Below are positions 29,266 to 44,819 of a stretch of 64,000 bases of DNA, piece after piece. Every line of letters begins with the position of its first letter. The first letter of the stretch is position 1. Below the pieces are notes generated by a model. The model ran no database searches and was not told the origin of the DNA. It saw nothing but the letters and a program-made list of their open reading frames with translations. Position numbers and translations under genes: made by a program. This DNA comes from Streptococcus sanguinis (GTDB taxonomy: Bacteria > Bacillota > Bacilli > Lactobacillales > Streptococcaceae). The stretch lies in NCBI RefSeq assembly GCF_900635155.1, contig NZ_LR134002.1, positions 1,922,001-1,986,000 on the forward strand, in the 5' to 3' direction.

Positions 29266-29319
29266 TTTAGAAATATTTGAGAAATTCTTTAGAAACATTT
29301 GAAGGTTTGGCGCTATACT
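29266..29319 (+). promoter_or_regulatory. Heptad-array promoter A (first ABC module)
   Basis: Four heptads TTTAGAA, TTGAGAA, TTTAGAA, TTGAAGG begin at 29266, 29277, 29288 and 29299, exactly 11 bp apart. TATACT (-10) begins at 29314, 8 bp after the last heptad. The third and fourth heptads occupy the -35 region, as expected for an OmpR-type activator site. Confidence 0.75.
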
Positions 29320-29373
29320 AATTAATAAGAAGAGGAGTTTTCTCTCCTAATATCATGAAAAGGAGAATTGATC

Positions 29374-30282
29374 ATGGAAAATGTTTTGGTTTTACAGCAA
29401 GTCAGCAAAAAATTCGGCCGGCAGTACGCTCTGACCGATGTGAGTCTGACGATAAAAAAAGGAGATATTTACGGTTTAATTGGCAAGAACGGGGCCGGAA
29501 AGACCACTCTGATCAAGGTCATCACCCAGCTCTTGGAAGCAAGCAGTGGCAATGTCTCCCTTTTTGGCTCTCAGAACTATCAAGAATGGACACAGAGCCT
29601 TAAGCGGGTCGGATCGGTCATCGAAACACCGGTCGCTCACAACCACCTGACAGCCTATGAAAATCTCAGCTACTACTGCAAGCTCCGCCATATTCCCCAT
29701 GCGGACAAGGTCATCCGTGAAACCTTGGAATACGTGGACTTGACAGATACCGGCAAGAAGAAATTCCGCGACTTCTCACTCGGGATGAAACAACGGCTGG
29801 GTCTGGCTATCGCGCTTCTTACCAGACCTGACCTAATGATACTAGACGAGCCTATCAATGGCCTGGATCCAGTCGGCATCAAGGAATTCCGCCAGCTGGT
29901 GCAGCGGCTCAACGAGGAGTTGGGAATGACCTTTATCATCTCAAGCCATATTCTGTCTGAACTCTACTTGGTTGGTACCCAGTTCGGCATTATCGAGGAA
30001 GGACGGCTGATTCGCGAGATTTCCAAGGCGGAGTTTGAAGAACAGAGCGAAGACTATATCGTGCTTAAAACATCGCAGTTAGAAGAAGCCAGCCGTCTGA
30101 TTCACGACCAGCTCATGCATCGTATCAAGGTGGTCAATGCTTCTGACGAGATTCATATCTTCACCCATTCGCATGAGATTAGCAATATTGTCAAGGAACT
30201 TGCAGCCGCAGATATACCGGTGCAGGAGATTTACTATGCACGACAAAACCTAGAAAACTTCTTTACAGACTTGGTCAAATGA
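29374..30282 (+). CDS. ABC transporter ATP-binding protein, BcrA/LanF type (module 1)
   Basis: 302 residues. Walker A GKNGAGKTTLIK (about 38-49), signature FSLGMKQRLGLA, Walker B LMILDEPINGLDP and switch His in ISSHILSELY; a C-terminal extension of about 80 residues is typical of bacitracin/lantibiotic-immunity ATPases. It would power export or removal of a membrane-active compound through the two permeases that follow. ATG at 29374 chosen because AGGAGA is 7 nt upstream; the 29368 alternative is TTG. Strong similarity to the ATPases at 31932 and 33694. Confidence 0.9.
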   Translation: MENVLVLQQVSKKFGRQYALTDVSLTIKKGDIYGLIGKNGAGKTTLIKVITQLLEASSGNVSLFGSQNYQEWTQSLKRVGSVIETPVAHNHLTAYENLSYYCKLRHIPHADKVIRETLEYVDLTDTGKKKFRDFSLGMKQRLGLAIALLTRPDLMILDEPINGLDPVGIKEFRQLVQRLNEELGMTFIISSHILSELYLVGTQFGIIEEGRLIREISKAEFEEQSEDYIVLKTSQLEEASRLIHDQLMHRIKVVNASDEIHIFTHSHEISNIVKELAAADIPVQEIYYARQNLENFFTDLVK

Positions 30283-30298
30283 CAAAGGGGGGCTTATC

Positions 30299-31057
30299 AT
30301 GATGGATTTCATTCGAGCCGATTTTTACCGGCTCATACGCTCAAAAGGCTTTTGGATTACTGAGTTTTTATTATTCTGTGCGATTATCTCAACAACCTTC
30401 TTCCATGCAAATATTCATTTTGGAGCAAATATCTCCAGAAATGAGGCTGCTAGTCAATCTCTAGGAAAACTAACCGGCCTTCAAGCTCTGGACTATTTTG
30501 CAGGCAAAACAGACAGTCTGCTCTTTTTCACTATCATTGGTATCAGTATGGTCCTTGGAGTGGATTTGTCTCGGAAACTTTATAAAAACTGTCTGAGCTA
30601 CGGCATCTCTAAGCTCAGCTATTATTTTTCTAAATTCTTTGTCTGCGTTAGTATCGCAGCCTTTCACTTCCTGATGATTTTATCTATCTCCTTTATGACC
30701 GCTAGTCTGTCCAACGGAATTGGCAGCGCCCCTGGCTCTTTTTTGCCTCAGCTGGGAGCTGCTCTCTTCGTCCAATTTCTCGGCACGATTGCATGGATTG
30801 CCATCATTTCTTTTGTACTCTATGCCAGCCACTCCATCGTGTCTAGCTTTCTGACCTATTTCCTTGGCGGTACCTTACTGACTATTCCCCTCATCTTTTA
30901 CCCGGACAATGAATGGCTGATCTATCTGACTCTGCGATTTAACACAGATATGGCAGCAGATGGCGGAGCTGTTATCAAGGCTATCCTGACAGTGGTAACG
31001 GTCACCCTGCTCTTTCTAGGTGGCGGGCTGATGGTTTTCAAAAAGAAAGATTTATAA
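30299..31057 (+). CDS. ABC-2 type permease (module 1, first)
   Basis: 252 residues, six hydrophobic segments, with the N-terminal pattern FIRADFYRLIRSKGFWITE shared by all four permeases of this block, LGVDLSRKLYKNCLSYGISK in the first loop, and the C-terminal MVFKKKDL. The family forms the membrane channel of BcrAB/LanFEG-type transporters. AAAGGGGGG precedes the start at the end of the ATPase gene. An ATG immediately downstream (30302) is an equally possible start. Confidence 0.85.
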   Translation: MMDFIRADFYRLIRSKGFWITEFLLFCAIISTTFFHANIHFGANISRNEAASQSLGKLTGLQALDYFAGKTDSLLFFTIIGISMVLGVDLSRKLYKNCLSYGISKLSYYFSKFFVCVSIAAFHFLMILSISFMTASLSNGIGSAPGSFLPQLGAALFVQFLGTIAWIAIISFVLYASHSIVSSFLTYFLGGTLLTIPLIFYPDNEWLIYLTLRFNTDMAADGGAVIKAILTVVTVTLLFLGGGLMVFKKKDL

Positions 31058-31094
31058 AATGCAGGAACAATCTTAATCATTCAGAGGAGATTTC

Positions 31095-31787
31095 ATGTTA
31101 CATACTATTCAGGCGGAACTCTACCAACTTGTCCGCTCCAAACTTTTTTGGCTAATAGAAGGGCTACTCTTTTTTCTTATTTTCATCAGCTCTCTTGGTG
31201 AACGAAACTTTAATTTTTATATCTCTACGTCTTCTGATTCAGAAGAAACAGTCATCCAAGGTTGGACAGGATTTGAAGCTCTCGGGCAGCTTGCTAAAGA
31301 TTTCCTGCCCTTTGTCATGATTACTGTCCTTGTGCTCATCATCTTTCTGCTAGGTCGTGACCTGACTAGAAAACTATACAAAAATATATTGGCTAGCGGG
31401 GTTTCTCGGAAAGAATTTTACTTATCAAAAATAGCTGTTCTTGTCATAATTATCATCTTTCAACTAATAACAGCCTTTGCTGCAGCCTTTATCTTTGGAA
31501 ACCTCTTCCACGGACTTGGAACTATGCCAAAGAACTTTTTCTGGAGCTTTTTCTTGTCTTTCTTTCGCTCCTTTCTCTTTATTATAACCTGCAGTTCCGT
31601 AGTTACCTGTCTTCTCTACCTGACCCGCTCCACCCTAGCCAGCTATCTCGTCTTTTTCGCCCTGATTATGCTTCAGTCTAGCCTCGTCATCGTTTTCCCT
31701 CAGATAAATTCTGAACTATTCTTATTCCTTATCTTAGCTGGTTCTCTCTTAGGTGGTTACCAAGCTTTTCAGCACAGGGACTTATAA
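31095..31787 (+). CDS. ABC-2 type permease (module 1, second)
   Basis: 230 residues, six transmembrane segments. Shares AELYQLVRSKLFWLIE at the start, LGRDLTRKLYKNILASGVSRKEFYLSK in the middle and a terminal QHRDL with the neighbouring permeases. It follows the first permease by 37 bp, behind an AGAGGAG ribosome site, with no new heptad array. Module 1 therefore has an ATPase with two different permeases, a LanFEG-like arrangement, while the other two modules have one permease each. Confidence 0.85.
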   Translation: MLHTIQAELYQLVRSKLFWLIEGLLFFLIFISSLGERNFNFYISTSSDSEETVIQGWTGFEALGQLAKDFLPFVMITVLVLIIFLLGRDLTRKLYKNILASGVSRKEFYLSKIAVLVIIIIFQLITAFAAAFIFGNLFHGLGTMPKNFFWSFFLSFFRSFLFIITCSSVVTCLLYLTRSTLASYLVFFALIMLQSSLVIVFPQINSELFLFLILAGSLLGGYQAFQHRDL

Positions 31788-31796
31788 ATTTAAGCA

Positions 31797-31819
31797 GTCA
31801 GCCCTTTGGCTGCTTTTTT
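31797..31819 (+). terminator. Terminator after ABC module 1
   Basis: CAGCC / GGCTG stem with CTTT loop followed by CTTTTTT. Confidence 0.7.
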
Positions 31820-31846
31820 ATTGCATTTGGATTGGTTCTGCATTTC

Positions 31847-31900
31847 TTTAGAAATATTTTAGAATTTCTTGAGAAATATTTGAAGTCTAGCTTGTATACT
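31847..31900 (+). promoter_or_regulatory. Heptad-array promoter B (second ABC module)
   Basis: Heptads TTTAGAA, TTTAGAA, TTGAGAA, TTGAAGT start at 31847, 31858, 31869 and 31880 (11-bp phase). TATACT begins at 31895, again 8 bp after the last heptad. Confidence 0.8.
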
Positions 31901-31931
31901 AAAATCAAACCTAAGAAAGCGAGAATATACC

Positions 31932-32840
31932 ATGCAAACTGTTTTAGAAGTAAAGCAAGTTACCAAACAATATGGTCAGCAATATGCCCTCGATCATGTG
32001 AGTCTTTCGATCCAGAAGGGCGAAATTTATGGACTGATTGGCAAGAACGGAGCTGGCAAAACCACTCTTCTCAAGACCATTAGCCGGCTCATTCATGCCA
32101 ACAGCGGAACCGTGTCTGTCTTTGGTTCGCAGAACTCTAAGGAGTGGAACGAAGCCTTGCGCAAGATAGGAACTGTCATCGAAACACCAGTCGCTTACAA
32201 TCAGATGACTGCTTATCAAAACCTCAACTACTACTGCAAGGTCCACCAGATTGCCCAGCCCGACCAGCTCATCAAGGAAACCCTGGCCTATGTCGGACTG
32301 AGCAATACTGGTAAAAAGAAATTCCGCAACTTTTCGCTAGGAATGAAGCAGCGCTTGGGGATCGCTATTGCCCTTATAAGCAAGCCTGAACTCATGATTC
32401 TAGATGAGCCCATAAATGGCCTTGATCCACTTGGCATCAAGGAATTTCGACTGATGATTCAGCGACTCAACCAAGAATTGGGAATCACTTTTATCATTTC
32501 CAGCCACATCTTGTCTGAGCTTTATCTGGTAGCCACCAAGTTTGGAGTGATTGACCAAGGACGGCTTGTCGCAGAATTTACCAAGGATGACTTTGACCGA
32601 GCCAGCGAAGATTATATCGTCCTCAAGACTAGCGATAAAGAACAGGCTGCCAATCTCATCCAAGGCAAGCTCCACTATCAGCTCAAGGACGCTGATAAAT
32701 CTGACGAGTTGCACATTGTCGCCCAAGAACAGGAACTAAATGACATCAACAGGGAGTTGGTCCTATCCAACATTCATGTCAATGGTATCTATGCAGCTCA
32801 CAAAGATTTAGAAAAATACTTTACAGATTTAGTCCAGTAA
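31932..32840 (+). CDS. ABC transporter ATP-binding protein, BcrA/LanF type (module 2)
   Basis: 302 residues, closely similar to the module 1 ATPase: Walker A GKNGAGKTTLLK, signature FSLGMKQRLGIA, Walker B LMILDEPINGLDP, His switch in ISSHILSELY, and the same long C-terminal extension ending DLEKYFTDLVQ. It is paired with a single permease 12 bp downstream. The whole unit from heptad array to permease is a duplicate of its neighbours, and the differences concentrate in the C-terminal extension, where substrate or permease specificity may lie (inference). Confidence 0.9.
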   Translation: MQTVLEVKQVTKQYGQQYALDHVSLSIQKGEIYGLIGKNGAGKTTLLKTISRLIHANSGTVSVFGSQNSKEWNEALRKIGTVIETPVAYNQMTAYQNLNYYCKVHQIAQPDQLIKETLAYVGLSNTGKKKFRNFSLGMKQRLGIAIALISKPELMILDEPINGLDPLGIKEFRLMIQRLNQELGITFIISSHILSELYLVATKFGVIDQGRLVAEFTKDDFDRASEDYIVLKTSDKEQAANLIQGKLHYQLKDADKSDELHIVAQEQELNDINRELVLSNIHVNGIYAAHKDLEKYFTDLVQ

Positions 32841-32852
32841 GGAGAAAAAACC

Positions 32853-33548
32853 ATGTTACATACTTTTCAAGCAGATTTTTACCGTTTCTTTCGTTCCAAG
32901 GCTGTTTGGATTACCGAATTCATCTTTCTACTGACGACCTTGAGCGCAGTCTTTGGCAAATTAAATGCCGTCCAGCTTATACAAGCGGTGTCTAACGCTA
33001 TCGGTAATAATACTTTTATCATCATTATCCTGTCTATGGTCGTCATCGGGACAGATCTGAACAAGCAGCTTTACAAGAATACATTAACCAGCGGTGTTTC
33101 CCGTACCAGTTTCTTCGTCTCTAAAGCCCTAGTCATGGTCTGCGTAACGTTCCTGCAGTTGGCTCTCTATTATAGCATCAACTTTATCCTAGCAGCCATT
33201 CTAAACGGTATTGGTGATTTATCCGCTACCTTCCTGCTTCAGTTTATTCTTCTATTCTTTGTGCAGTGCCTGACTGTCATTGCTTGGACAGCTATTATTT
33301 CCTTTATTCTTTATCTGAGTAAATCTATGATTGCTGCCCTGGGAGGTTACCTTTTCTGCGCATCCTTAACCGGAGCTCTTGCGCAACTTTATCCCAAGTC
33401 TCTGTGGCTACAGCATTTAACCATGAGCTTTGATTTTGAGACACTTCAAAGCAACGGTGTAACCTTGAGAATTGTTCTAATCGCCTTGTTTTTAGGAATC
33501 GTCTTCACCGCAGCAAGTCTTTATACTTTCCACAAAAAGGATTTATAG
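32853..33548 (+). CDS. ABC-2 type permease (module 2)
   Basis: 231 residues, six transmembrane segments, with the shared start FQADFYRFFRSKAVWITEF, IGTDLNKQLYKNTLTSGVSRTSFFVSK after the second helix, and terminal FHKKDL. Partner of the ATPase encoded just upstream. If two permease copies are needed per transporter it would act as a homodimer, unlike module 1. Confidence 0.85.
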   Translation: MLHTFQADFYRFFRSKAVWITEFIFLLTTLSAVFGKLNAVQLIQAVSNAIGNNTFIIIILSMVVIGTDLNKQLYKNTLTSGVSRTSFFVSKALVMVCVTFLQLALYYSINFILAAILNGIGDLSATFLLQFILLFFVQCLTVIAWTAIISFILYLSKSMIAALGGYLFCASLTGALAQLYPKSLWLQHLTMSFDFETLQSNGVTLRIVLIALFLGIVFTAASLYTFHKKDL

Positions 33549-33553
33549 TAGAG

Positions 33554-33582
33554 AATGAGCCAGTTCTTGACTGGCTCATTTT
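33554..33582 (+). terminator. Terminator after ABC module 2
   Basis: Perfect stem AATGAGCCAGT / ACTGGCTCATT followed by TT and further Ts. Confidence 0.78.
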
Positions 33583-33604
33583 AATCTTTCCAATTTTAAA
33601 ATTC

Positions 33605-33658
33605 TTGAGAAATATTTTAGAATTTCTTGAGAAATATTTGAAATTTAGTTTGTATACT
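33605..33658 (+). promoter_or_regulatory. Heptad-array promoter C (third ABC module)
   Basis: Heptads TTGAGAA, TTTAGAA, TTGAGAA, TTGAAAT start at 33605, 33616, 33627 and 33638. TATACT begins at 33653, 8 bp after the last heptad. Nearly identical to array B. Confidence 0.8.
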
Positions 33659-33693
33659 AAAAGTATAAACAAAGTAATTAAAGGAGAAACATC

Positions 33694-34626
33694 ATGCAAA
33701 ATGTTTTAGAAGTGAAAGGACTCACTAAAAAATACGGTGATCAATATGCTCTGAAAGATGTCAGTCTTTCCATCAAGAAAGGAGAGATCTACGGTCTTAT
33801 CGGAAAAAACGGTGCTGGTAAGACCACGCTGATCAAAATCATCACGCAAGTCATCTATCCTAGCGGAGGAACCGTATCTGTTCTGGGCTCTCAGAACCAA
33901 CAAGAATGGACCAGAGCCCTCAGCCATACTGGATCTGTTATCGAGACCCCTGTAGCTCATGCCCACATGTCGGCCTATGAAAATCTGCGCTACTACTGTA
34001 CCGACCGGGGCATTCCAAATGCTGACAAAGTCATCAAAGAAACCCTTCAATATGTCGGCCTGACCGATACTGGAAAGAAGAAATTTCGCAATTTCTCTCT
34101 AGGGATGAAACAGCGGTTGGGCATTGCCATTGCCATTTTGGGGCGTCCCGACTTGCTCATCCTGGACGAGCCCATCAATGGTTTAGATCCAGTTGGGATT
34201 CAGGAATTTAGAGAAATGGTCAAGCGCCTCAATCAAGAATTAGGCATCACCATCATCATTTCCAGCCATATCCTGTCCGAGCTTTATATAGTAGCAACTC
34301 GCTTTGGTTTTATCAATCAAGGGCATTTCATCAAGGAGCTGTCTAAGGAAGAATTTGACCGAGAAAGCGGCGACTATATCATCCTCAAAACGGATAATAT
34401 CAAGCAAGCTGCCCATTTAGTGCAAGACAAGCTAGGCTACCAGCTCAGACCGACCAAAAAGGAAGATGAGCTGCATATTTCCGGTAAGGTACAAGAAATT
34501 CGCAAGATTGCCAAGGAATTAGTCCTAGCCGACATCCCAATCGGGGAAATCTACTACGCCCACAAAGACTTAGAAAAATACTTTACAGACTTAATCAACC
34601 AACAAGGAGGAAACACTCATGTTTAA
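33694..34626 (+). CDS. ABC transporter ATP-binding protein, BcrA/LanF type (module 3)
   Basis: 310 residues with Walker A GKNGAGKTTLIK, signature FSLGMKQRLGIA, Walker B LLILDEPINGLDP and ISSHILSELY. It is a few residues longer at the C-terminus than the other two and its end overlaps the permease start by 8 bp, with AAGGAGG inside the coding end serving the permease. Same inferred role as the other modules: ATP-driven protection against, or export of, a membrane-active molecule. Confidence 0.9.
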   Translation: MQNVLEVKGLTKKYGDQYALKDVSLSIKKGEIYGLIGKNGAGKTTLIKIITQVIYPSGGTVSVLGSQNQQEWTRALSHTGSVIETPVAHAHMSAYENLRYYCTDRGIPNADKVIKETLQYVGLTDTGKKKFRNFSLGMKQRLGIAIAILGRPDLLILDEPINGLDPVGIQEFREMVKRLNQELGITIIISSHILSELYIVATRFGFINQGHFIKELSKEEFDRESGDYIILKTDNIKQAAHLVQDKLGYQLRPTKKEDELHISGKVQEIRKIAKELVLADIPIGEIYYAHKDLEKYFTDLINQQGGNTHV

Positions 34627-35341
34627 TAGTATCAAGGCGGATTACTACCGTCTCTTCCGCTCCGTAGGATTCTGGGGAGTGCAGGCTTTCTGCATCTTTG
34701 GAATTCTCCTCGCCATTTTCACTTCCAAAGTCGTCAGTTCCGACAACGGTATCTTTTTTGCCATAGATGTCGTCTCCTACAACAGTGGCATGCTCTTTAT
34801 TGCCTGCAATGTCATGACTAGCTTGCTCCTAGGCGTTGATCTCAATGACAAACTTTATCACAATAACCTGACTACAGGCAAGACTCGGACCCAGTATTAC
34901 TTCTCTAAAGCACTGGTTATCGGCAGCTTACTTCCTATGCAGTTCATACTGCTCTACATTTTAGGTATTGTCATCGAATTTGTCCGAACCGGCGGTAATA
35001 TGGGAACCCTGCCAGCTAATTTCTGGGGACAATTCGCAATACTCTTTGTCATGCAGGTCATCTGTACCTATGCTTGGTACTGCATTACCAGCTTTGTTCT
35101 CTACTTGACTCGAAACTATAGTGTCGTCTTCATCACCTATATCATGACCTACATCTTACTCGGTCTCCCTAGTCAAATGTTCGATGCCAATAATGAATGG
35201 TTCAAGGCTATCAAGATGGAGTTCGTCTACGGAGACGCTTCAATACTAGGTGTCATCATCAAAACAGCTATCTTTGCTCTCAGTCTGATTACGGTCTTTA
35301 CCTTAGCAGGACTGGCTACACTGAAGAAGAGAGATTTGTAA
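34619..35341 (+). CDS. ABC-2 type permease (module 3)
   Basis: 240 residues, six transmembrane segments. Start IKADYYRLFRSVGFWGVQ, LGVDLNDKLYHNNLTTGKTRTQYYFSK in the first loop and terminal KKRDL match the other permeases, though the overall sequence is the most diverged of the four. Translationally coupled to its ATPase by the 8-bp overlap. Confidence 0.85.
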   Translation: MFNSIKADYYRLFRSVGFWGVQAFCIFGILLAIFTSKVVSSDNGIFFAIDVVSYNSGMLFIACNVMTSLLLGVDLNDKLYHNNLTTGKTRTQYYFSKALVIGSLLPMQFILLYILGIVIEFVRTGGNMGTLPANFWGQFAILFVMQVICTYAWYCITSFVLYLTRNYSVVFITYIMTYILLGLPSQMFDANNEWFKAIKMEFVYGDASILGVIIKTAIFALSLITVFTLAGLATLKKRDL

Positions 35342-35345
35342 AATA

Positions 35346-35382
35346 AAAACTCAGCTAATCACTAAATTAGCTGAGTTTTTTT
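35346..35382 (+). terminator. Strong terminator after ABC module 3
   Basis: 14-bp perfect stem AAAACTCAGCTAAT / ATTAGCTGAGTTTT with 6-nt loop and further Ts. A close copy of its right arm plus the following GAGCGGATTTTGA recurs at 37383-37413. Confidence 0.88.
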
Positions 35383-35451
35383 GAGCGGATTTTGATTGGA
35401 TTATGAGCGGATTTCACTCCTTCTGGTCTAGCCCTCTTTATCGGCTTTCTT

Positions 35452-36069
35452 TCACTGCTTCCAATCTTGCTTTTTCAAGAACAGATTGATGCAGACTCCT
35501 AGGATAAGGTAGAAAGTGACAAAGGCAAGACTGGCTGCCAGACTGGTCGGATATGGAAAGATCTTGCCCATAGGAAAAAGAACATTAGATAGAAATCCGA
35601 GGGGAACAAAGAGCAAGAATAAAATCAAGGCTAGCTTAACCTGAAAAGAAGGCCTTGCCTCGGATAGATTGCGGCCTGTTCCCCACACCAGCAGCCCTAC
35701 TCCCTGGACAATCAGCACCGGCGTTAGCAAGATACTAGTCTTGAGAAAATCAGCTAGGATAATGGAGAGGATGATGCCCAGACCGACCAAGCCAAGAGAG
35801 AGCTGATAGCAAATATTGCTGGCTATTCTCCTGTGCCTGATTGACTGCTCTTCCTCTTTCTGGACTACAGGCTCAATTCCCTTGAGCAGATAATCTGTGG
35901 TCACCTCAAAATAGTCACTCATGGAAATGATCTTATCCAAATCAGGCATACTCTGCTCGCTCTCCCACTTGGAAACGGCCTGTCTGGACACACCGAGTTG
36001 GTCGGCTAGCCCCTCCTGAGAAATGCCCCGCGCTTTTCGCAGGTACTGGATTCTGTCTGATAGATTCAT
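35452..36069 (-). CDS. XRE-family regulator with membrane domain
   Basis: 205 residues. N-terminal Xre helix-turn-helix (about 4-60, [30 protein letters not shown]), then about four transmembrane helices (85-200). Membrane-bound Xre proteins of this kind are common next to ABC transporters and CPBP proteases. It is convergent with the ABC block and could tune it or sense membrane state; no target can be assigned from sequence. Confidence 0.85.
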
Positions 36070-36122
36070 GGATTGTTTTACCTACTCTTTCTTATTTTTT
36101 ATACTTTCTTTCATTGACACTT

Positions 36123-36150
36123 ATTATAGCACAAGGCGGAGAGACTGCAA
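36123..36150 (-). promoter_or_regulatory. Extended -10 promoter of the XRE gene
   Basis: Minus strand TTGCAG, 16-bp spacer, TGCTATAAT (extended -10), about 55 bp before the ATG. Confidence 0.55.
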
Positions 36151-36178
36151 AGTCTGATTGTCACCTCTTCATAAAATG

Positions 36179-37009
36179 CTAGACTTCTTCTTTAGACGGA
36201 AGTGCTTTTTCCTCCCTATCCGTCCGATACCAGAGATAGATACTATAAAGTGTCAGGAGAATCACACCTCCAAAGTAAAAGAAGGGATTGACTTGAGAGA
36301 AATCCAAATTGTTAGCTTGAGCTATCCCAACAAAAGTCGGGATGAGGGTGTTGGAGAGCGCATGAAAGATGTTACAAGCAAGGACAGACTGGGTCTTCTT
36401 ATACAGAGCTGCAAGCCAAAAAGATAGAAGGATACTGAAAATGATAAAAACTGAGAAAAGATCCTGGCTTCGATCATAAAAGCGATCGTAAAACCAGAGA
36501 GGAATATGCCAGATGGCCCAAATAATACCGGTCATCAAGGTAGAGACAAAGAAAGAAAATTTTTTCTCTAAGGCCGGCTGTAGGAAGCCCCGCCAGCCAA
36601 ATTCTTCAATCCCGCCCGATAGGACAATACAATAGATAAAAAACCAAGGAAATCTTACTAAAGCGCCGTCTACCAACTTGCCGCCAGAAGCTAGAGCATA
36701 GAAGGTAGCCAGACCGCCACCATAGATTAGCAAGTAGAGCCAGGTCTCTTTCTTGCCTGAAAAGAGATAGGAGCAAATGGCCTTGAAGCCTTTCTTTTTC
36801 AGTACAATCAGGCTAGCCAGCATAGGCCCAAACATAGCAATACCATTTAGAATAGCTTCAAGAGCAAGATAGGCTGTAGGTGGACTGTCAGGCCAAAGTT
36901 TTTTGAGGATGATGTCTAGCAGCCAGAATCCCCATGTCCAGCCGAAGTTCCAAGCTAGGAACGGCAAAATTAGTTTTGGTTGTGGTTTGATAGTTGTTTC
37001 TGTATTCAT
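36179..37009 (-). CDS. CPBP-family intramembrane metalloprotease (CAAX protease-like)
   Basis: 276 residues, about eight transmembrane helices. The CPBP motif is visible as GGIEEFGWRGFLQP (about 132-145), with the second motif around IWAIWHIPLW and the last conserved His in FHALSNTL. Family members process or protect against bacteriocin-type peptides (Abi/immunity) or act as prenyl-protein proteases; the specific role is unknown. Its location between the ABC modules and the two-component system fits an antimicrobial-response locus. Confidence 0.85.
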   Translation of the reverse strand: MNTETTIKPQPKLILPFLAWNFGWTWGFWLLDIILKKLWPDSPPTAYLALEAILNGIAMFGPMLASLIVLKKKGFKAICSYLFSGKKETWLYLLIYGGGLATFYALASGGKLVDGALVRFPWFFIYCIVLSGGIEEFGWRGFLQPALEKKFSFFVSTLMTGIIWAIWHIPLWFYDRFYDRSQDLFSVFIIFSILLSFWLAALYKKTQSVLACNIFHALSNTLIPTFVGIAQANNLDFSQVNPFFYFGGVILLTLYSIYLWYRTDREEKALPSKEEV

Positions 37010-37463
37010 GAGAATACCTCCTTATAATATAATTAAACTCAAGTTTTTGAGCCAAATCTTCAAAGACAGCGACTCGTTCATTCCAAAATCAAAAACTTGA
37101 TTTCTGCTTTCAGATTAACAAAAAAGCCAGTTGCCTTTCTAGCGACTGGACTTGGAATAAAGAAAAAATCTAGTTGCTTTTTGAATGATTGAACTTGGAA
37201 TCTTTGTCAACTGTCAGTTGCAAGTCAGTTATATCAAGGGTTTAGAGTAGTTGGCTGATTTTTTACTTTGACCAGTAAAATGTCCTCTCTAAGCTGACTA
37301 GCTTTTCAAACCACAAAACAAAAAGGCATCTTTATCATGCCTTTCTTCGACTTAATCTAAAAATAAACCTCCACCAATTCGAAAATTAGCTGAGGTTTAT
37401 GAGCGGATTTTGAGGCTAGCTAATAGAGCTAACTCTTTCTTTTTTTGCTTTTTTAAAAGTCAT
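37010..37463. other. 454-bp intergenic region with stacked hairpins and an imperfect repeat
   Basis: No credible gene. It holds three hairpins that would act on the minus strand after the histidine kinase: 37365-37398 (AAACCTC / GAGGTTT), 37322-37344 (AAAGGCAT / ATGCCTTT, T-rich tail) and 37121-37149 (CCAGTTGC / GCGACTGG, T-rich tail). An imperfect 32-bp direct repeat ends in ACTTGGAAT (37127-37158 and 37170-37201). Sequence 37383-37413 is a near copy of 35364-35395 after ABC module 3. The arrangement looks like debris of a duplication. Confidence 0.5.
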
Positions 37464-38339
37464 TTACAAAGTCACAACCAGTTCAAACCAGTCGTCCTCG
37501 GCTTTCATTGTCAAGTCTCCGCCTAGGATTTCGACTAACTGCTGGGTGATGTAGAGCCCCAACCCTGAAGACTCCTCGCTGCTGGATAGGTTTTCTGAGT
37601 AAAAGCGATTGGTCAGCTTATCCAGATATTGGATAGGCTGCTGGACGATATTTTTGACGGTAAAGATACAATGCTCGCCCTCTTTTTTCAGAGAAATGCT
37701 GGCAGCCTTACGGCCGTGCTTGAGGACATTGCTTATCATATTTTGGACAATGCGCTCTAGAATTTCTGGGTCTGTCTCTAGCTCTAGACCTTCAGCCAGC
37801 TCTACCTGCAAGTCAATCTGGGCTTTCTGGAAGGCATCATAATAAGTAAAAAGCTGCTGGGTTACCAGCTGAGATATATCTGTCGGCTGGACATTGGCCC
37901 GAATGGCTCCCTCCATCAACCGGCGGTACTCCATCAAGGCTTCCAGCCGTTTGGATACCATTCCCAGACTATCTGCAATTTTGACCAGCTGCTGACTTTC
38001 CTGACTATCATCCTTCAGCAGCTGCTGGGTGTAGCCACTGGCAATGGTCAGAGGGGTGCGGATATCATGGGCAATATTACTGATAGCCATATCCAGCGTC
38101 TTCTTTTCCTGCTGGACAACAAAGGTCGTCTTATCTAGCTCCCTAAAGAGCAGCTCTGCTTCCTCTGTCAATTCCAAAATACTGGGGGCATGAGCAGCAG
38201 GAGCCAGACGATTCTGGCTCCCTGTCTGTCGCTTCCGACGAATCTGCTGTGCCACATCCTTGACCGCCAGATGATAGCGTATGAAACCAATAGCCAGAAA
38301 CAGACTGATAAGGGCAAATAAAATGACTAACACCAACAT
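37464..38339 (-). CDS. Sensor histidine kinase with minimal sensor region
   Basis: 291 residues. One N-terminal transmembrane helix (about 2-22), no extracellular domain, then HisKA with the phospho-acceptor in ISNIAHDIRTPLTIASG, and a HATPase domain with N-box QNMISNVLKHG and G-box SSGLGLYI. I chose the ATG at 38339, where AAGGAGG is 6 nt upstream, instead of a GTG at 38363 that would overlap the regulator gene. With almost no sensor it may read its signal through a transporter or another membrane protein, as BceS-type kinases do (inference). Confidence 0.88.
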   Translation of the reverse strand: MLVLVILFALISLFLAIGFIRYHLAVKDVAQQIRRKRQTGSQNRLAPAAHAPSILELTEEAELLFRELDKTTFVVQQEKKTLDMAISNIAHDIRTPLTIASGYTQQLLKDDSQESQQLVKIADSLGMVSKRLEALMEYRRLMEGAIRANVQPTDISQLVTQQLFTYYDAFQKAQIDLQVELAEGLELETDPEILERIVQNMISNVLKHGRKAASISLKKEGEHCIFTVKNIVQQPIQYLDKLTNRFYSENLSSSEESSGLGLYITQQLVEILGGDLTMKAEDDWFELVVTL

Positions 38340-38340
38340 A

Positions 38341-39021
38341 TCAGTCCTCCTTGAGCCGGACACCTAGTCCCCAAACAGTCTCTATGTATTCCTCTGTTGG
38401 GTCCAACTGAGCCAGTTTCTTACGTAGATTGCTGAGGTGGGTATTCAGGGTATTATCCCCAGGCAGATAGCTCTCTTCCCAGACCTGCTCAAAGAGCTCT
38501 TCCTTGGTGTAGATCTTCTTGGGATGACGGAGCAAGAGCTGGAGGATATGATATTCTTTCTTGCTCAGACGGACGCTTTTCTCACCGCAGACCGCCTCAA
38601 AGGTAGCCTTGAGTAGACGGATATTTTTAAAGGACTGGCCTTCTTCCTCGCCAGTCAAAGCCTGCTGGCTGCGCAGCTGCACGGTAATACGGGCAAAAAC
38701 CTCATCCAGATTGAAAGGTTTGACGATATAATCATTAGCACCATTCAGCAGGTACTGACTAACCAGCGCTTTCTCACCAAGGGCCGTCAGCATAACCACT
38801 GGCACCGTAGCATTGCTGCTGCGAATTTCCCTCAACACTTCATCACCATTCTTACCCGGCAGCATGATATCCAAAAGGACCAAATCAATCTCCTCCCGCT
38901 CAAACAGCGAAATGCCCTCTGTCCCCGAATAGGCAGAATAAACCGTGTGTTCCTTCTGAAAAAGTTCTTTTAGAATTTCATGAATATCACTGTTGTCTTC
39001 GATGAGCAAAATATGAGCCAT
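38341..39021 (-). CDS. OmpR-family response regulator
   Basis: 226 residues: receiver domain (about 1-120) with the acidic pair IEDN, phosphorylated Asp in LVLLDIMLPGKNG, TALGEKA and the Lys in YIVKPF; C-terminal winged helix (about 128-225). ATG at 39021 is supported by GGAGG 10 nt upstream; 10 earlier codons are not needed. Upstream of the kinase in one unit, divergent from the hydrolase operon whose promoter carries heptad array D. It is the best candidate to bind the four 11-bp-phased arrays of this block. Confidence 0.9.
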   Translation of the reverse strand: MAHILLIEDNSDIHEILKELFQKEHTVYSAYSGTEGISLFEREEIDLVLLDIMLPGKNGDEVLREIRSSNATVPVVMLTALGEKALVSQYLLNGANDYIVKPFNLDEVFARITVQLRSQQALTGEEEGQSFKNIRLLKATFEAVCGEKSVRLSKKEYHILQLLLRHPKKIYTKEELFEQVWEESYLPGDNTLNTHLSNLRKKLAQLDPTEEYIETVWGLGVRLKED

Positions 39022-39052
39022 AAACACTCGCCTCCAGAAATTTCCTATCACT

Positions 39053-39081
39053 AGTGTAGCAAGGATAAGAGGCTAAGTCAA
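39053..39081 (-). promoter_or_regulatory. Promoter of the two-component system
   Basis: Minus strand TTGACT, 17-bp spacer, TACACT. It lies back-to-back with array D, which starts 25 bp further on. Confidence 0.6.
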
Positions 39082-39105
39082 TAAAAGATGGACTATTCGA
39101 AAAAC

Positions 39106-39159
39106 TTTAGAAATATTTTAGAATTACTTGAAGGATATTTGAGAATCGAACTTTAAAAT
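39106..39159 (+). promoter_or_regulatory. Heptad-array promoter D (serine hydrolase operon)
   Basis: Heptads TTTAGAA, TTTAGAA, TTGAAGG, TTGAGAA start at 39106, 39117, 39128 and 39139. TAAAAT (-10) begins at 39154, the same 8-bp distance as in arrays A-C. It links the hydrolase operon to the ABC modules 4-10 kb away. Confidence 0.75.
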
Positions 39160-39203: not shown

Positions 39204-39263
39204 ATGTTTAAAATTTTTTGCAAAATCGTTTTTAAAAGTATTACTTTCGCCCTTGAGGGCTAA
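39204..39263 (+). CDS. 19-residue micro-ORF, hydrophobic cationic peptide
   Basis: Encodes MFKIFCKIVFKSITFALEG. It is the first ORF after promoter D and has a textbook ribosome site (AAAAGGAGG, 6 nt before the ATG); the next gene starts 18 bp after its stop with another good site. The peptide has four lysines spaced among hydrophobic residues and one cysteine, so it could be membrane-active or a leader/uORF. An alternative is a degraded start of an HXXEE-like gene: the HXXEE protein at 44836 also begins MFK and has FAMG near residue 20. Expression is not shown by sequence alone. Confidence 0.5.
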   Translation: MFKIFCKIVFKSITFALEG

Positions 39264-39281: not shown

Positions 39282-41066
39282 ATGAAGAAATCATTTATTC
39301 TAACACTTCTAACCATTATAACTCTGGGGCTCTTCCAGCCAGCTACTGCACTGGCTGAGGAGGCTCAAAAGCTACCCTCTGGTATCAAACGTGACCAGAT
39401 CGGCCAGAAAATCCAAGACTATGTCAAGAAATACGAAAAGACAACAGCCGGCATGGCGACGGCAGTCTTTGATAAGGACGGTACCATTTATAAAGGAAAT
39501 TTTGGCTATATGAACAAGGAAAAGGGAGTCAAAGCTGATGACAGCAGCGTTTTTGAATGGGGCTCTGTAACCAAATTAACCGTCTGGCTCTCTGTTATGC
39601 AGCTCTGGGAACAAGGTAAGATTAACCTAGAAGAAGACATCCGCACCTATCTGCCAGATGGTTTTCTCAAGACTCTCCGCTATGATAAGCCTATCACCAT
39701 GCTGGATCTGATGAACCATCAGGCTGGTTTTGAAGAGGGGGCTCATGCTGCTTATCTGGAAAATAAGGGGCAGACGATAGAGGAGATTTTGTCAGTTAGT
39801 CAGCCAACTCAGATTTTTGAACCTGGCACAACAACAGCCTATTCTAATTTTGGAGCAGGCTTAGCGTCCTATATCGTTGAGCGAATCTCTGGTCAGCGTT
39901 TCTCCAACTACGTCCATGAGCATATCTTCCAGCCATTGGACATGAACCAAACCGCCATCCTTCCTGGCTTCGCGGATAATAACTATGTCCGTGAAAAACG
40001 AAAGAAAGCTCAATCTTATGATACAGAAGGAAACTCACTCGGTTCGGCTTACTTTGATTTTGGCTTGTATTCTGTGGGTCAGGCAGCTTCTAGCCCTGAA
40101 GACTTTCAGAAGTTTGGTCAAGCCCTGTTAAAGCAAGAAAAATTGTTTCAGCGCTCAGAAACTTGGAAAACACTTTATACTGCTACTTCAACCTTCCCCG
40201 GAACGGATAGACTGCTAAATGCTCACGGCTTCATGGTCGAAGAATATGGCACTGTTGTTCTGGGACACGGTGGGAATTCCACTGGTTATTCATCTTACAT
40301 TTTACTAGACTTGAAAAACGGTATTGGCCTTACTGTCATGACCAATCAAAAAGGCGAGGATATTTATAATGTTCTGATGCCTGAACTTGTTTTTGGATCC
40401 AAGAAAAAGACTGATAAGGCTACCTTTGAAAATTTCAAGCCGGGCTACTATCGTTCCGCTCGGTACTTCGAGACTGGTCCCCTGTCAGTTGCCCGAACTC
40501 TATTTTATACGAGTTACGTCCCTAAAAGTATGGACAATCCGCAATTAAACCAAAATTATGCGGTGCTAAGCCATGAAGGCGGCCAAGAAAAAATCACTAG
40601 CACCACAGGCGATACACTCAAGATATCGGATACAGAAATCTACAAAGATTATGCCATGTACTTCTTAGCAGTTGCAGGAGTGGTCTACGCTCTCATCAAT
40701 CTATTCATTAGTGGCGTTGCTGGTCTTGTTCGCTCGCTGAAAAAAATGCCATCCAAGATGCCAAAAGCCCTGCGAATCTGGAATACTCTGACTTCGCTGA
40801 CGGTATTAGCAACCGGAGCAAATTTTGCATTATTATTCCTTGCAATGACCAGCGGTAACATCAGCTTTGTAGCTCCTTGGCGCTATACAATCTTTGCTGG
40901 TCTAGGACTCATCTTAGGAGGTTGCCTAGTCTATCCGCTTCTGACCAAAGCTAAAAAAGGACTCGGAAAAGGAAGTGTCTTCCTGACGGTTATGACTAGC
41001 CTATCTGCACTGGCCATCGTAGCCAATATCCTTTATTGGTCTCTTTACCAGTGGTGGGCATTATGA
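39282..41066 (+). CDS. Membrane-anchored serine hydrolase, beta-lactamase fold (copy 1)
   Basis: 594 residues. Signal peptide (about 1-25, TALAEE cleavage region), class C beta-lactamase/DD-peptidase-like domain (about 40-380) with SxxK as S95-V-T-K98, YxN as Y187-S-N189 and HGG at 329-331, then about four C-terminal transmembrane helices (about 445-590). The catalytic domain faces outside. Related esterase/peptidase-like proteins often accompany peptide-resistance genes, but the substrate is unknown. AAAAGGAG is 7 nt before the ATG. First of three tandem paralogues under promoter D. Confidence 0.87.
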   Translation: MKKSFILTLLTIITLGLFQPATALAEEAQKLPSGIKRDQIGQKIQDYVKKYEKTTAGMATAVFDKDGTIYKGNFGYMNKEKGVKADDSSVFEWGSVTKLTVWLSVMQLWEQGKINLEEDIRTYLPDGFLKTLRYDKPITMLDLMNHQAGFEEGAHAAYLENKGQTIEEILSVSQPTQIFEPGTTTAYSNFGAGLASYIVERISGQRFSNYVHEHIFQPLDMNQTAILPGFADNNYVREKRKKAQSYDTEGNSLGSAYFDFGLYSVGQAASSPEDFQKFGQALLKQEKLFQRSETWKTLYTATSTFPGTDRLLNAHGFMVEEYGTVVLGHGGNSTGYSSYILLDLKNGIGLTVMTNQKGEDIYNVLMPELVFGSKKKTDKATFENFKPGYYRSARYFETGPLSVARTLFYTSYVPKSMDNPQLNQNYAVLSHEGGQEKITSTTGDTLKISDTEIYKDYAMYFLAVAGVVYALINLFISGVAGLVRSLKKMPSKMPKALRIWNTLTSLTVLATGANFALLFLAMTSGNISFVAPWRYTIFAGLGLILGGCLVYPLLTKAKKGLGKGSVFLTVMTSLSALAIVANILYWSLYQWWAL

Positions 41067-41238: not shown

Positions 41239-43020
41239 ATGAAAAAATCATTTATTCTAACGCTTTTAACGATTATAACTATAGGACTCTTCTGGCCAAT
41301 TACTGCATTGGCTGAGGAGCCTCAAAAGCTACCATCTGGTATCGAACGGGACCAGATTGGTCAGAAAATCCAAGACTATGTCAAGGAACATGAAAAGACA
41401 ACAGCCGGCATGGTGACGGCAGTCTTTGATAAGGACGGTACCATTTATCAAGGCAACTTTGGATACATGGATAAGGAAAAAGGCATCAAGGCCGATGATG
41501 ATAGCGTTTTTGAATGGGGCTCCGTAACCAAATTAACTGTCTGGCTCTCTGTTATGCAGCTCTGGGAGCAAGGTAAGATTAACTTAGAAGAAGACATCCG
41601 CACCTATCTGCCAGAGGGCTTCCTCAAAAATCTCCGCTATGATAAGCCAATCACCATGCTGGATCTGATGAACCATCAGGCGGGATTCGATGAGGTAAGC
41701 ATGTACCTACAAGACGATAAAAGTATCGAAGAAATCCTTGAAGAACAACAACCTATCCAGTCCTTTGAACCTGGTACAGTCACAGCTTATTCAAATTACG
41801 GTACCGGCTTGGCGGCTTTGATTGTCGAGCGGATCTCCGGTCAGCGGTTTGTTGATTATGCTCATGAGCATATTTTCCAACCTCTGGGCATGGATAAAAC
41901 GGCTATTTTGCCGGATCTATCAGACAATTCCTACGTTCAGAAAAAGCGTCAAGAGGCCAAAGGATATGACATCCAAGGAAAAGTTCTGAGAAAGGATAGT
42001 TTCATTGTTGGCCTCTATCCTATCGGTGCAGCTACTGGTACCTTGAAAGACTTGGAGAAGTTCGCCCAAGCCCTGCTGGCTCGCAAAACGCTCTTTGAGC
42101 GTCCAGAGACTTGGAGTACCCTCTACAGCCCAAGCCTGACCTATCCTGGAACAGATACTGCTCGTAACGCTCATGGCTTTTGGGCTAACGAATATGGCAC
42201 TACAGTGCTAGGACACGGCGGAAATACACTTGGCTTTAGCTCACGGATAATGTTGGACTTGGAGCACGGTATCGGCTATGTCGTCATGACCAATCAAGGT
42301 ACAGAGCAAAATTATAATTTCCAAATGCCAGAGCTCGTCTTTGGACCACGTAAAACGGCCAGCAAGGAAACCCAAGAGCAGTTCAGTCCAGGCTATTATC
42401 GCACTCTGCGAAATCTTAACCAAGGTCCTCTGGCTATCTTTAAAATGATTCCAGCCTCCGCAGACTACTTGCAGGAACCATCTGATGATCAGCGATTGCC
42501 AAACAACTTCTGGACCATTTATCAGAACAAAGGCAAGACCCATATCGCAGTGGCTGTCGCAGACTATGAGAAAGTCTCTGACTTTGATTTCTTTAAAGAC
42601 TATGTTGTTCTAGGCTTGGCCGGACTTGGTATCATCTACGCCCTCGGCCTCATCATCATCAGCCCGCTTCTAGGAGGCTATCGGCTTATCTTTCGCAAGA
42701 GACAAGACCAGCCAAATCGCACTTGGAAGGCCTGGAACCTCCTAACAGCTGTTGGTATTTTGGCCGTTCCAATCAATCTCTTTCTGCTATTCATGTCAGC
42801 AATTCCAGGAAATTTCAGCGAGATCGCTCAGTGGCGCTACATGCTCTTTGCTGCTTTGGGACTCCTGCTAACCGCAGCCGCTCTGTTACCGCTCTTCAGA
42901 AAGTTCAGAGAAAAGCTCAGCAAAGGCCGCCTCTTCCTAACAGCCATGACCAGCCTATCTGCCTTAGCAGTGGCCACTAATATCCTCTATTGGTCCCTCT
43001 ATCAGTGGTGGGTATTCTAA
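41239..43020 (+). CDS. Membrane-anchored serine hydrolase, beta-lactamase fold (copy 2)
   Basis: 593 residues, same plan as copy 1: signal peptide ending ITALAEE, GSVTKLTVW with the SxxK motif, AYSNYGTGL, LGHGGNTLG and four C-terminal helices ending YWSLYQWWVF. ATG at 41239 is supported by AGAAAGGA; 11 earlier codons in frame lack a site. Identity to copies 1 and 3 is highest around the signal peptide, SxxK region and last 60 residues and lowest just after the hydrolase domain, as if exchange or selection acts differently along the protein. Confidence 0.86.
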   Translation: MKKSFILTLLTIITIGLFWPITALAEEPQKLPSGIERDQIGQKIQDYVKEHEKTTAGMVTAVFDKDGTIYQGNFGYMDKEKGIKADDDSVFEWGSVTKLTVWLSVMQLWEQGKINLEEDIRTYLPEGFLKNLRYDKPITMLDLMNHQAGFDEVSMYLQDDKSIEEILEEQQPIQSFEPGTVTAYSNYGTGLAALIVERISGQRFVDYAHEHIFQPLGMDKTAILPDLSDNSYVQKKRQEAKGYDIQGKVLRKDSFIVGLYPIGAATGTLKDLEKFAQALLARKTLFERPETWSTLYSPSLTYPGTDTARNAHGFWANEYGTTVLGHGGNTLGFSSRIMLDLEHGIGYVVMTNQGTEQNYNFQMPELVFGPRKTASKETQEQFSPGYYRTLRNLNQGPLAIFKMIPASADYLQEPSDDQRLPNNFWTIYQNKGKTHIAVAVADYEKVSDFDFFKDYVVLGLAGLGIIYALGLIIISPLLGGYRLIFRKRQDQPNRTWKAWNLLTAVGILAVPINLFLLFMSAIPGNFSEIAQWRYMLFAALGLLLTAAALLPLFRKFREKLSKGRLFLTAMTSLSALAVATNILYWSLYQWWVF

Positions 43021-43037: not shown

Positions 43038-44819
43038 ATGAAAAAAACATTTTCCCTAATCCTTTTAACTCTTTTGACTCTAGGACTCTTCCAGCCAGCT
43101 ACGGCGCTAGCTGAGGAGTCCCAAAAGCTACCCTCTGGTATCGAACGGGACCAGATTGGCCAGAAAATCCAAGACTATGTCAAGGAGCATGAAAAGACAA
43201 CAGCCGCTATGGAAACGGCAGTCTTTGACAAGGATAGCACCATTTACCAAGGCAATTTCGGTTATATGGATAAAGAAAAAGGCATCAAAGCTGACAACAG
43301 CAGCGTCTTTGATTGGGGCTCTGTGACCAAGCTGACCGTCTGGATAGCTGTCATGCAACTCTGGGAACAAGGAAAGATTGACCTAGAGGAAGATATCAAG
43401 ACCTACCTGCCAGAGAATTTTCTTAAAAATCTGCACTTCGATAAAGCTATCACGATGCTGGATCTCATGAATCATCAGACGGGATTTGATGAATCTCTGT
43501 CTTACACAAAAGGTGATAAAAATATAGAGGAAAATCTACGCATGCTCCAGCCTGTCCAGTCCTTTGAACCTGGAACAGTAACCTCTTATTCCAATTATGG
43601 TGCTGGGCTCGCTTCTCTGATTGTCGAGCGGATTTCCGGTCTGACCTTTGCTGACTATGCCCACGAGCATATCTTCCAGCCGCTTGGCATGGACAAGACA
43701 GCTCTCCTACCGAACTTATCTGATAATCCCTATGTTCAGAAAAAACGTCAAGAATCTAAGGCCTATGATACAAAGGGAAATTCACTAGGGACAGCTTTTT
43801 ATGAGTATGGTCTCTACTCAATTGGCCAAGCAGCCAGTACCTTGGAGGATTTACAGAAATTTGCTCAGGCTCTGCTGGGGCGCAAGGTTCTCTTTGAACG
43901 TCCAGAAACTTGGAATACTCTCTACAATCCCACTTCGACCTATCCAGGTACAGACATCGCCCGCAATGCCCACGGTTTCTGGATCAACGAATACGGAGTC
44001 AGCATCATTGGCCACGGTGGCAATACTGATGGTTTCAGCTCTCGTCTCATGCTAGACTTGGAAAGTGGCATCGGCTACATAGTCATGACCAATCAAAGCA
44101 TGGAAGAGAATTACAACTACCAAATGCCTGAACTGGTTTTCGGAAGACGTAAAACAGCTGACGAAGATACCCAAAAGCAGTTTACACCAGGCTACTACCT
44201 TTCTCCACGTACCTTTCTCCATGGCCCCTTATCCTTTCTAAGACTCATGATGCCCTCAATAGAGAAGATTGACAATCCTGCTCAGAACCGAATCTTGAAT
44301 ACCAATTTTTGGACCATCTATAAGAGCAAGGGAAAGATTACAATTCCCGTCGCTGTGGTAGACTATGAAAAAATCTCTGCTTTCGACTACTATAAGGACT
44401 ATATCATCGTAGGTTTAGGCATTCTTGGAATTGTCTATAGTTTTGGAACGCTCATCATCAGCCTTTTATTAGGAGCTTATCGCTTGATTTCCCGAAAAAC
44501 GGTTGAGCACACAGACCGCACTTGGAAGGTCTGGAATCTACTGACTTCTCTTGGTATTCTGGCTGTTCCCCTAAACCTACTAATGATTATGATACCTTTG
44601 ATGGCTGATGACCTTGATTCTCTAGCTCATTGGCGCTACATGCTCTTTGCTGCCTTGGGACTCCTGCTAACCGCTGCTGCTCTGCTGCCGCTTTTCAGAA
44701 AATCCAGGAAAAAGCTCAGCAAAGGCCGCCTCTTCCTGACGGCCATGACCAGTCTATCTGCTTTGGCGGTGGTCGCTAATATCCTTTACTGGTCCCTCTA
44801 CCAGTGGTGGGTGCTTTGA
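43038..44819 (+). CDS. Membrane-anchored serine hydrolase, beta-lactamase fold (copy 3)
   Basis: 593 residues with signal peptide, WGSVTKLTVWIAVMQLW (SxxK), TSYSNYGAGL (YxN), IGHGGNTDG, and the C-terminal four-helix region almost identical to copy 2 (KGRLFLTAMTSLSALAVVAN). It starts 17 bp after copy 2 behind AAAGGAG, so the pair is clearly cotranscribed. All catalytic residues are kept in all three copies, which argues that none is decaying. Confidence 0.87.
   Translation: MKKTFSLILLTLLTLGLFQPATALAEESQKLPSGIERDQIGQKIQDYVKEHEKTTAAMETAVFDKDSTIYQGNFGYMDKEKGIKADNSSVFDWGSVTKLTVWIAVMQLWEQGKIDLEEDIKTYLPENFLKNLHFDKAITMLDLMNHQTGFDESLSYTKGDKNIEENLRMLQPVQSFEPGTVTSYSNYGAGLASLIVERISGLTFADYAHEHIFQPLGMDKTALLPNLSDNPYVQKKRQESKAYDTKGNSLGTAFYEYGLYSIGQAASTLEDLQKFAQALLGRKVLFERPETWNTLYNPTSTYPGTDIARNAHGFWINEYGVSIIGHGGNTDGFSSRLMLDLESGIGYIVMTNQSMEENYNYQMPELVFGRRKTADEDTQKQFTPGYYLSPRTFLHGPLSFLRLMMPSIEKIDNPAQNRILNTNFWTIYKSKGKITIPVAVVDYEKISAFDYYKDYIIVGLGILGIVYSFGTLIISLLLGAYRLISRKTVEHTDRTWKVWNLLTSLGILAVPLNLLMIMIPLMADDLDSLAHWRYMLFAALGLLLTAAALLPLFRKSRKKLSKGRLFLTAMTSLSALAVVANILYWSLYQWWVL

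Follow-up and report, generated by a model that had tools for sequence, protein, structure and literature searches.

In Streptococcus sanguinis, the two-component system BfrABss controls bfrCDss, bfrXYss, bfrH1ss, and bfrH2ss, according to the passage of PMC5462765 that cites Zhang et al. 2009 (doi 10.1099/mic.0.023168-0). A stretch of 64,000 nucleotides (nt) from an S. sanguinis genome (assembly GCF_900635155.1, contig NZ_LR134002.1, positions 1,922,001 to 1,986,000; the whole of this stretch is called the window here) was compared with this and other described systems. The window contains four promoters, each with an array of four direct-repeat heptads upstream of its -10 box, together with the genes of a response regulator and a histidine kinase. 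Taken as a whole, the evidence makes it very probable that the arrays are BfrA operators, and the genes behind them are best read as a membrane and antimicrobial-peptide defence regulon; the regulator and kinase genes are called bfrA and bfrB below.

What the BfrAB regulon known from S. gordonii and S. sanguinis shares with the present one is the species S. sanguinis, the two-component system, the bfrCD/bfrXY-type ABC operons, and the CAAX-type bfrH genes: three ABC modules and a CAAX gene of the genome studied carry arrays and fit the bfrCD/bfrXY and bfrH target types, as matched by type of gene. Zhang et al. are said to have given the BfrA consensus as TTTCTTTAGAAATATTTTAGAATT, which we take to correspond to heptads 1 and 2 of the arrays plus flanks. 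We therefore regard the operator as the BfrA box described earlier and the whole system as a known one. Unlike that regulon, the present one has four heptads with a fixed -10 box, three ABC modules, and array-bearing genes for serine hydrolases, a PepO-like peptidase, and a micropeptide, which are not known to be among the targets of Zhang et al. The four-heptad/-10 geometry, these extra targets, and the 19-amino-acid (aa) cationic micropeptide are apparently new. A full-text literature search with the 18-base array core gave no match, and neither TTTAGA nor bfr occurs in the main text of a pneumococcal regulon paper (PMC11034029). A first-pass annotation of the window had not recognized the operator as a described streptococcal motif. 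That it is undescribed is not supported: on the targets in the passage cited above and the consensus attributed to Zhang et al., the operator appears to correspond to the BfrA box.

Four further papers describe systems that are alike in part. LanFEG/CprABC-type systems, such as S. mutans LcrRS-LctFEG (PMC5786555), likewise have a two-component system adjoining an ABC-2 exporter and a lantibiotic-protection-like ATPase, but LcrS has a 117-aa outside loop, whereas BfrB has one N-terminal hydrophobic helix and no outside sensor domain was seen in its hydropathy profile; moreover, TIGR03740, the best match of all three window ABC ATPases, is reached at 237.6 to 243.7 bits, below its cut-off of 309.75. 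The promoters of Escherichia coli PhoB (PMC3348028) share direct repeats that span the -35 region, together with tandem binding and a modelled sigma contact; the half-site differs, and the crystal complex contains one dimer, whereas four repeats precede each -10 box here. CiaRH and its csRNAs (PMC3091779) offer a streptococcal repeat site with a spaced -10 box, some sites driving small RNAs, but differ from the arrays in half-site and regulator. In group B Streptococcus, the CAAX/Abi membrane protein Abx1 acts on the histidine kinase CovS (PMC3578759). CAAX genes here adjoin bfrB and lie inside the putative regulon, a parallel by analogy only. To our knowledge, no interaction of BfrB with a CAAX/Abi protein has been described.

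The heptads of each array in the window lie at offsets of +0, +11, +22, and +33, and the -10 hexamer begins 8 bp past heptad 4 in all four cases (Table 1). Heptads 1 and 2 are near-invariant (TTTAGAA-ATAT-TTTAGAA), and heptads 3 and 4 are looser, heptad 3 of the array at 39106 reading TTGAAGG. A scan of the window for TTKAGAA-N4-TTKAGAA-N4-TTKAGAA with up to 3 mismatches gave 11 matches (shifted registers counted), every one at the four array sites, versus a mean of 0.05 and a maximum of 1 for this three-heptad pattern in 100 dinucleotide shuffles; chance is therefore excluded for these arrays.

When the 2.36-Mb genome, a single contig, was searched with the four-heptad pattern, three further arrays were found, at C1:735437 (+), C1:1716483 (+), and C1:2107128 (-), and the 8-bp gap to the -10 box was present in all seven. 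Because genome-wide matches with up to 3 mismatches include background (the reversed control gave 4 matches in one genome-wide search and 3 in the four-heptad search), only the seven sites with 0 to 2 mismatches were counted. The array at C1:2107128 stands before a CAAX-type protease gene, and that at C1:1716483 heads a serine-hydrolase locus in which an apparently broken first copy (L010, about positions 4084 to 4504) is followed by an intact paralogue and then by an alpha/beta hydrolase gene. No -35 match above 4 of 6 at a spacing of 15 to 19 bp was found in any of the seven arrays, which is the expectation for an activator; the candidate bfrA promoter, by contrast, has recognizable -35 and -10 hexamers. 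Alignment confirmed the four heptads 11 bp apart and the 8-bp gap that the first-pass annotation had noticed at the four window sites, and the Pfam-annotated genes agree with its placement of arrays 1 to 3 before ABC modules and of array 4 before a micro-ORF and serine hydrolases. Its view that phased repeats of this kind are typical of OmpR-family activators fits the lack of a good -35 box. Of its proposal of one regulon of about 12 genes, the single regulon is supported, and with seven promoters in the genome it is likely larger than proposed.

The regulator has a receiver domain (PF00072) and a winged-helix Trans_reg_C domain (PF00486), the composition of the OmpR/PhoB type, and is 99 to 100% identical to the regulators of S. 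sanguinis SK355, SK49, and SK1, in keeping with S. sanguinis as the species. Among 284 Streptococcus genomes, the regulator was present in 135 (E up to 1e-60), and the array including its -10 box was present, with at most 1 mismatch, in 137, with no reversed-control match among those listed. Both were found in 133 genomes, the array alone in 4, the regulator alone in 2, and neither in 145, counts that are uncorrected for ancestry. A stricter array pattern that excluded the -10 box matched 62 of the 284 genomes, 60 of them with the regulator, and all 30 loci fetched with it had TATACT at 8 bp; by a best-score rule, 28 of these have their hexamer at 8 bp and two (L027 and L039) tie with a hexamer at 13.

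A comparison of named genomes was limited to the best 80 regulator loci. Where the regulator was at least 62% identical, an array lay nearby in 36 of 37 loci, the contig of the 37th (L072) ending first, versus 0 of 43 where it was at most 46% identical. In those 36 loci, which include Enterococcus sp. 665A and Oceanobacillus neutriphilus, the array precedes an ABC ATPase gene on the strand opposite the regulator, an arrangement that we take to be the ancestral unit. The number of arrays per genome was 3 to 8 in the S. sanguinis types (G000 and G185 to G195), 5 in G046, and mostly 1 or 2 elsewhere. The proposal of the first-pass annotation that the OmpR-family regulator of this block reads the arrays is thus supported by both the genus-wide co-occurrence and the contrast between close and distant regulators, and the array with its 8-bp gap, which it had suggested seeking in related genomes, was found there in the numbers given above.

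Several observations weigh against reading the arrays as BfrA operators. The Fisher P value for the co-occurrence, 1.4e-73, is likewise uncorrected for ancestry. Some genomes depart from the pattern, although most of these departures can be accounted for. Among the array-only genomes (G018, G107, G195, and G198), G107 has a regulator split in two pieces; in G018, no close regulator was found and the ABC gene behind the retained array is truncated to 36 codons; in G195, the array is kept and the best regulator match has at most 34% identity; and in G198, a draft of about 120 contigs, no close regulator was found and the end of a contig lies 154 bp from one array. The regulator-only genomes are G182, which has an array at 2 mismatches, and G060, in which a regulator of 54% identity occurs with no array at up to 2 mismatches and which is an unexplained exception. 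The PepO-like M13 peptidase gene is a weaker target, since the -10 box of the array at C1:735437 ends about 200 to 250 bp before it, depending on the start codon. Finally, no named S. gordonii record, whose BfrA could have been compared directly, was among the matches listed in the regulator searches.

Two alternatives to BfrA operators concern the arrays themselves. Another OmpR-family regulator might read them, with CiaR as the foremost candidate; the CiaR site, NTTAAG-N5-TTTAAG and a spaced -10 box, has the same 11-bp direct-repeat period and similar A/T-rich half-sites (PMC3091779). We consider this very improbable. The CiaR half-site is TTTAAG versus TTTAGAA in the arrays, and CiaRH is described as widely conserved in streptococci (PMC9603419), but an array is present in 137 of the 284 genomes, in step with the bfrA regulator. 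CiaR was rejected as the reader on the difference in half-site and on this distribution of the arrays (no search was made for CiaR across the genomes). That the arrays are passive copies left by recent duplication of ABC modules, with no regulon behind their likeness, would agree with the three similar tandem ABC ATPases and with the 93% identity of arrays 2 and 3 over a 54-bp core. The same array, however, stands before unrelated genes, and its design is conserved both within the genus and outside it. Heptads average 0.89 identity and linkers 0.65, and the 60-bp flanks of the seven arrays are far less alike (identity of 0.18 to 0.47 upstream and 0.20 to 0.57 downstream) than the core (0.65 to 0.93). 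Since the flanks are unrelated, the seven arrays are not simply copied DNA; passive duplication was rejected on this ground and is extremely improbable.

If the arrays are BfrA operators, phosphorylated BfrA would bind the four direct half-sites on one helix face. Its dimers would first fill heptads 1 and 2, the strong site, and then, cooperatively, heptads 3 and 4, a weaker site that covers the -35 region. By analogy with PhoB, BfrA would substitute for the missing -35 box and recruit RNA polymerase to a -10 box in fixed phase; the constant 8-bp gap (seven of seven arrays here and TATACT in the 30 loci) fits strict polymerase contact. bfrAB itself would be driven from its ordinary-looking promoter. 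The regulon would comprise seven promoters, serving three LanFEG/CprABC-like ABC modules, two serine-hydrolase loci (the micropeptide gene leading one), a CAAX-type protease, and probably the PepO-like peptidase. BfrA would activate the extra targets as well, and the regulon is best read as one of membrane and antimicrobial-peptide defence.

The micro-ORF behind array 4 has a ribosome site, begins 45 nt after the -10 box, and ends 18 bp upstream of the hydrolase start. It was present in all 11 bfrA-bearing S. sanguinis-type genomes (G000 and G185 to G194), each time 45 nt behind an exact array, and G046 (L179; regulator 80% identical) has the micropeptide MIRVFCRVIFRSIRFAIEDL 47 nt behind its array. 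Of the 13 genomes in which an array was observed at the array-4 site, 12 thereby have the micropeptide gene as the first gene behind it. In G239 (L097:9913, minus strand; regulator 70% identical), the array at the same bfrA-divergent site is followed by the hydrolase from nt 59, and the micropeptide is absent; it is absent also from G195, which has no close regulator. A DNA pattern for the micropeptide matched 16 of the 284 genomes, versus 2 matches for the reversed control; the matches in G012, G018, G051, and G274 were set aside since the printed frames contained no such short ORF (no search for arrays beside these matches was made in that comparison). The S. sanguinis-type micropeptide genes form six haplotypes that differ solely by K/R, V/I, and silent changes. 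Helix amphipathicity is strong in the G046 peptide and moderate in the S. sanguinis peptide (95th percentile of shuffles).

Two readings of this micro-ORF were weighed. It may be a leader, or upstream ORF, that tunes translation of the hydrolase and has no peptide role of its own, a reading that we regard as possible but doubtful. The 18-bp distance to the hydrolase start agrees with it, as do the hydrolase found in the roughly 1.5 kb fetched behind 8 of the 12 copies (6 with a hydrolase and 2 with a CAAX gene and then a hydrolase), the direct hydrolase and absent micropeptide of G239, and the divergence from G046, where 11 of the 14 codons that changed are nonsynonymous; the two sequences differ at 18 of 57 bases and share 9 of 19 residues. 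Against a leader, no hydrolase was found in the roughly 1.5 kb fetched from 4 of the 12 genomes: in three, a hairpin follows immediately with none of the reference genes (the hairpins of G188 and G192 are T-rich, and that of G191 is weaker), and in G046 none of the reference genes follows in this span. The residue changes, moreover, are mostly K/R and I/V swaps, and the conservation relative to G046 exceeds that of a substitution null: 0.2% of 20,000 sets of random substitutions attained the BLOSUM sum of 59, the null mean being 32.0 with a standard deviation of 9.4 (P = 0.002, from an ad hoc null applied to one pair).

Array 4 could instead be the promoter of a BfrA-induced, 19- to 20-aa, cationic amphipathic membrane micropeptide that is capable of standing alone and tunes BfrB or guards the membrane, with the downstream genes as exchangeable cargo; in this full form, the proposal is unlikely, and it is weakened by G239, which has array and hydrolase and no micropeptide. 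The micropeptide would feed back on BfrB or guard the membrane, and the serine-hydrolase and CAAX genes behind it would be exchangeable cargo in a BfrA-controlled slot. Because BfrB has a single membrane helix and shows no outside sensor domain, a small membrane partner is attractive, if unproved, and the micropeptide may be a new part of the BfrAB system. Separately, in G192 (L174 and L202), BfrA is only 73% identical, yet array 4 and the micropeptide match the S. sanguinis type; replacement of the bfrA allele is possible there.

A second array without a sense ORF was found in ten genomes (G019 to G026, G198, and G241), the loci being L149 to L156, L176, and L178, together with L185 of G046. 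It points at a convergent gene, read from sequence as a glutathione reductase gene (L149), whose 3' end it faces. Against shuffles, its leader folded with z scores of -1.8 to -4.8 in 10 loci, but the comparable G046 leader scored +0.4; covariation in the leader was found in 0 of 20 pairs, and Rfam gave no match at gathering scores for the 8 sources searched. The second array may perhaps drive a BfrA-dependent small RNA. Other observations on arrays were also made. G081 has a second array far from bfrA (C1:1718075), and the intact array of G018 (L148) before a truncated ABC gene without a close BfrA looks like an operator relic. Other TTAAGA-form repeats phased at about 11 bp (L103:10359, L109:9907, L114:1200, L115:10661, and L141:4901) sit just downstream of distant BfrA relatives (at most 46% identical) and are perhaps their cognate sites.

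The features of the window are collected in Table 1. Hydrolase 1 scores 66.7 bits against a class C beta-lactamase cut-off of 415 (NF033085), which places it in the fold family only, and a role in beta-lactam resistance was rejected for it, as its score is far under that cut-off.

Table 1. Positions of the arrays, -10 boxes, and genes in the window
Feature	Position	Strand	Basis or remark
Array 1 (putative BfrA operator)	29266..29305	+	heptads 29266/29277/29288/29299
-10 box TATACT of array 1	29314..29319	+	8 bp after heptad 4
ABC ATPase 1, lantibiotic-protection-like	29374..30282	+	PF00005; TIGR03740 below cut-off
ABC-2 permease 1a	30299..31057	+	PF12730
ABC-2 permease 1b	31095..31787	+	PF12730
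Array 2 (putative BfrA operator)	31847..31886	+	pattern scan and alignment
-10 box TATACT of array 2	31895..31900	+	alignment
ABC ATPase 2	31932..32840	+	PF00005
ABC-2 permease 2	32853..33548	+	PF12730 just below cut-off
Array 3 (putative BfrA operator)	33605..33644	+	pattern scan and alignment
-10 box TATACT of array 3	33653..33658	+	alignment
ABC ATPase 3	33694..34626	+	PF00005
Permease 3	34619..35341	+	assigned by position; no Pfam match
CAAX/Abi-type membrane protease, between ABC modules and bfrB	36179..37009	-	PF02517; no array precedes
bfrB, histidine kinase	37464..38339	-	PF00512/PF02518; start codon inferred
bfrA, response regulator of OmpR/PhoB type	38341..39021	-	PF00072/PF00486
Candidate ordinary sigma-70 promoter of bfrA	39053..39081	-	TTGACT-N17-TACACT
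Array 4 (putative BfrA operator), divergent from bfrA	39106..39145	+	pattern scan and alignment
-10 box TAAAAT of array 4	39154..39159	+	alignment
Micropeptide gene, MFKIFCKIVFKSITFALEG	39204..39263	+	ribosome site present
Serine hydrolase 1, beta-lactamase fold family	39282..41066	+	PF00144
Serine hydrolase 2	41239..43020	+	PF00144
Serine hydrolase 3	43038..44819	+	PF00144
HXXEE protein, possible operon end	44836..45501	+	PF13787; co-transcription inferred

A strong motif found de novo is now tied to a regulator on which there is earlier work in the context of biofilms. The known system is extended by a seven-promoter regulon, a four-site, phase-locked promoter design, co-occurrence across the genus, and a micropeptide gene, and the design is present in 137 of the 284 Streptococcus genomes searched, besides one locus each in Enterococcus and Oceanobacillus. 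The micropeptide, if its proposed role is true, would explain in a testable way how a kinase that lacks a sensor domain might be tuned. Together, the lantibiotic-type exporters, serine hydrolases, CAAX proteases, peptidase, and cationic micropeptide suggest that peptide defence is the basic function of BfrAB.

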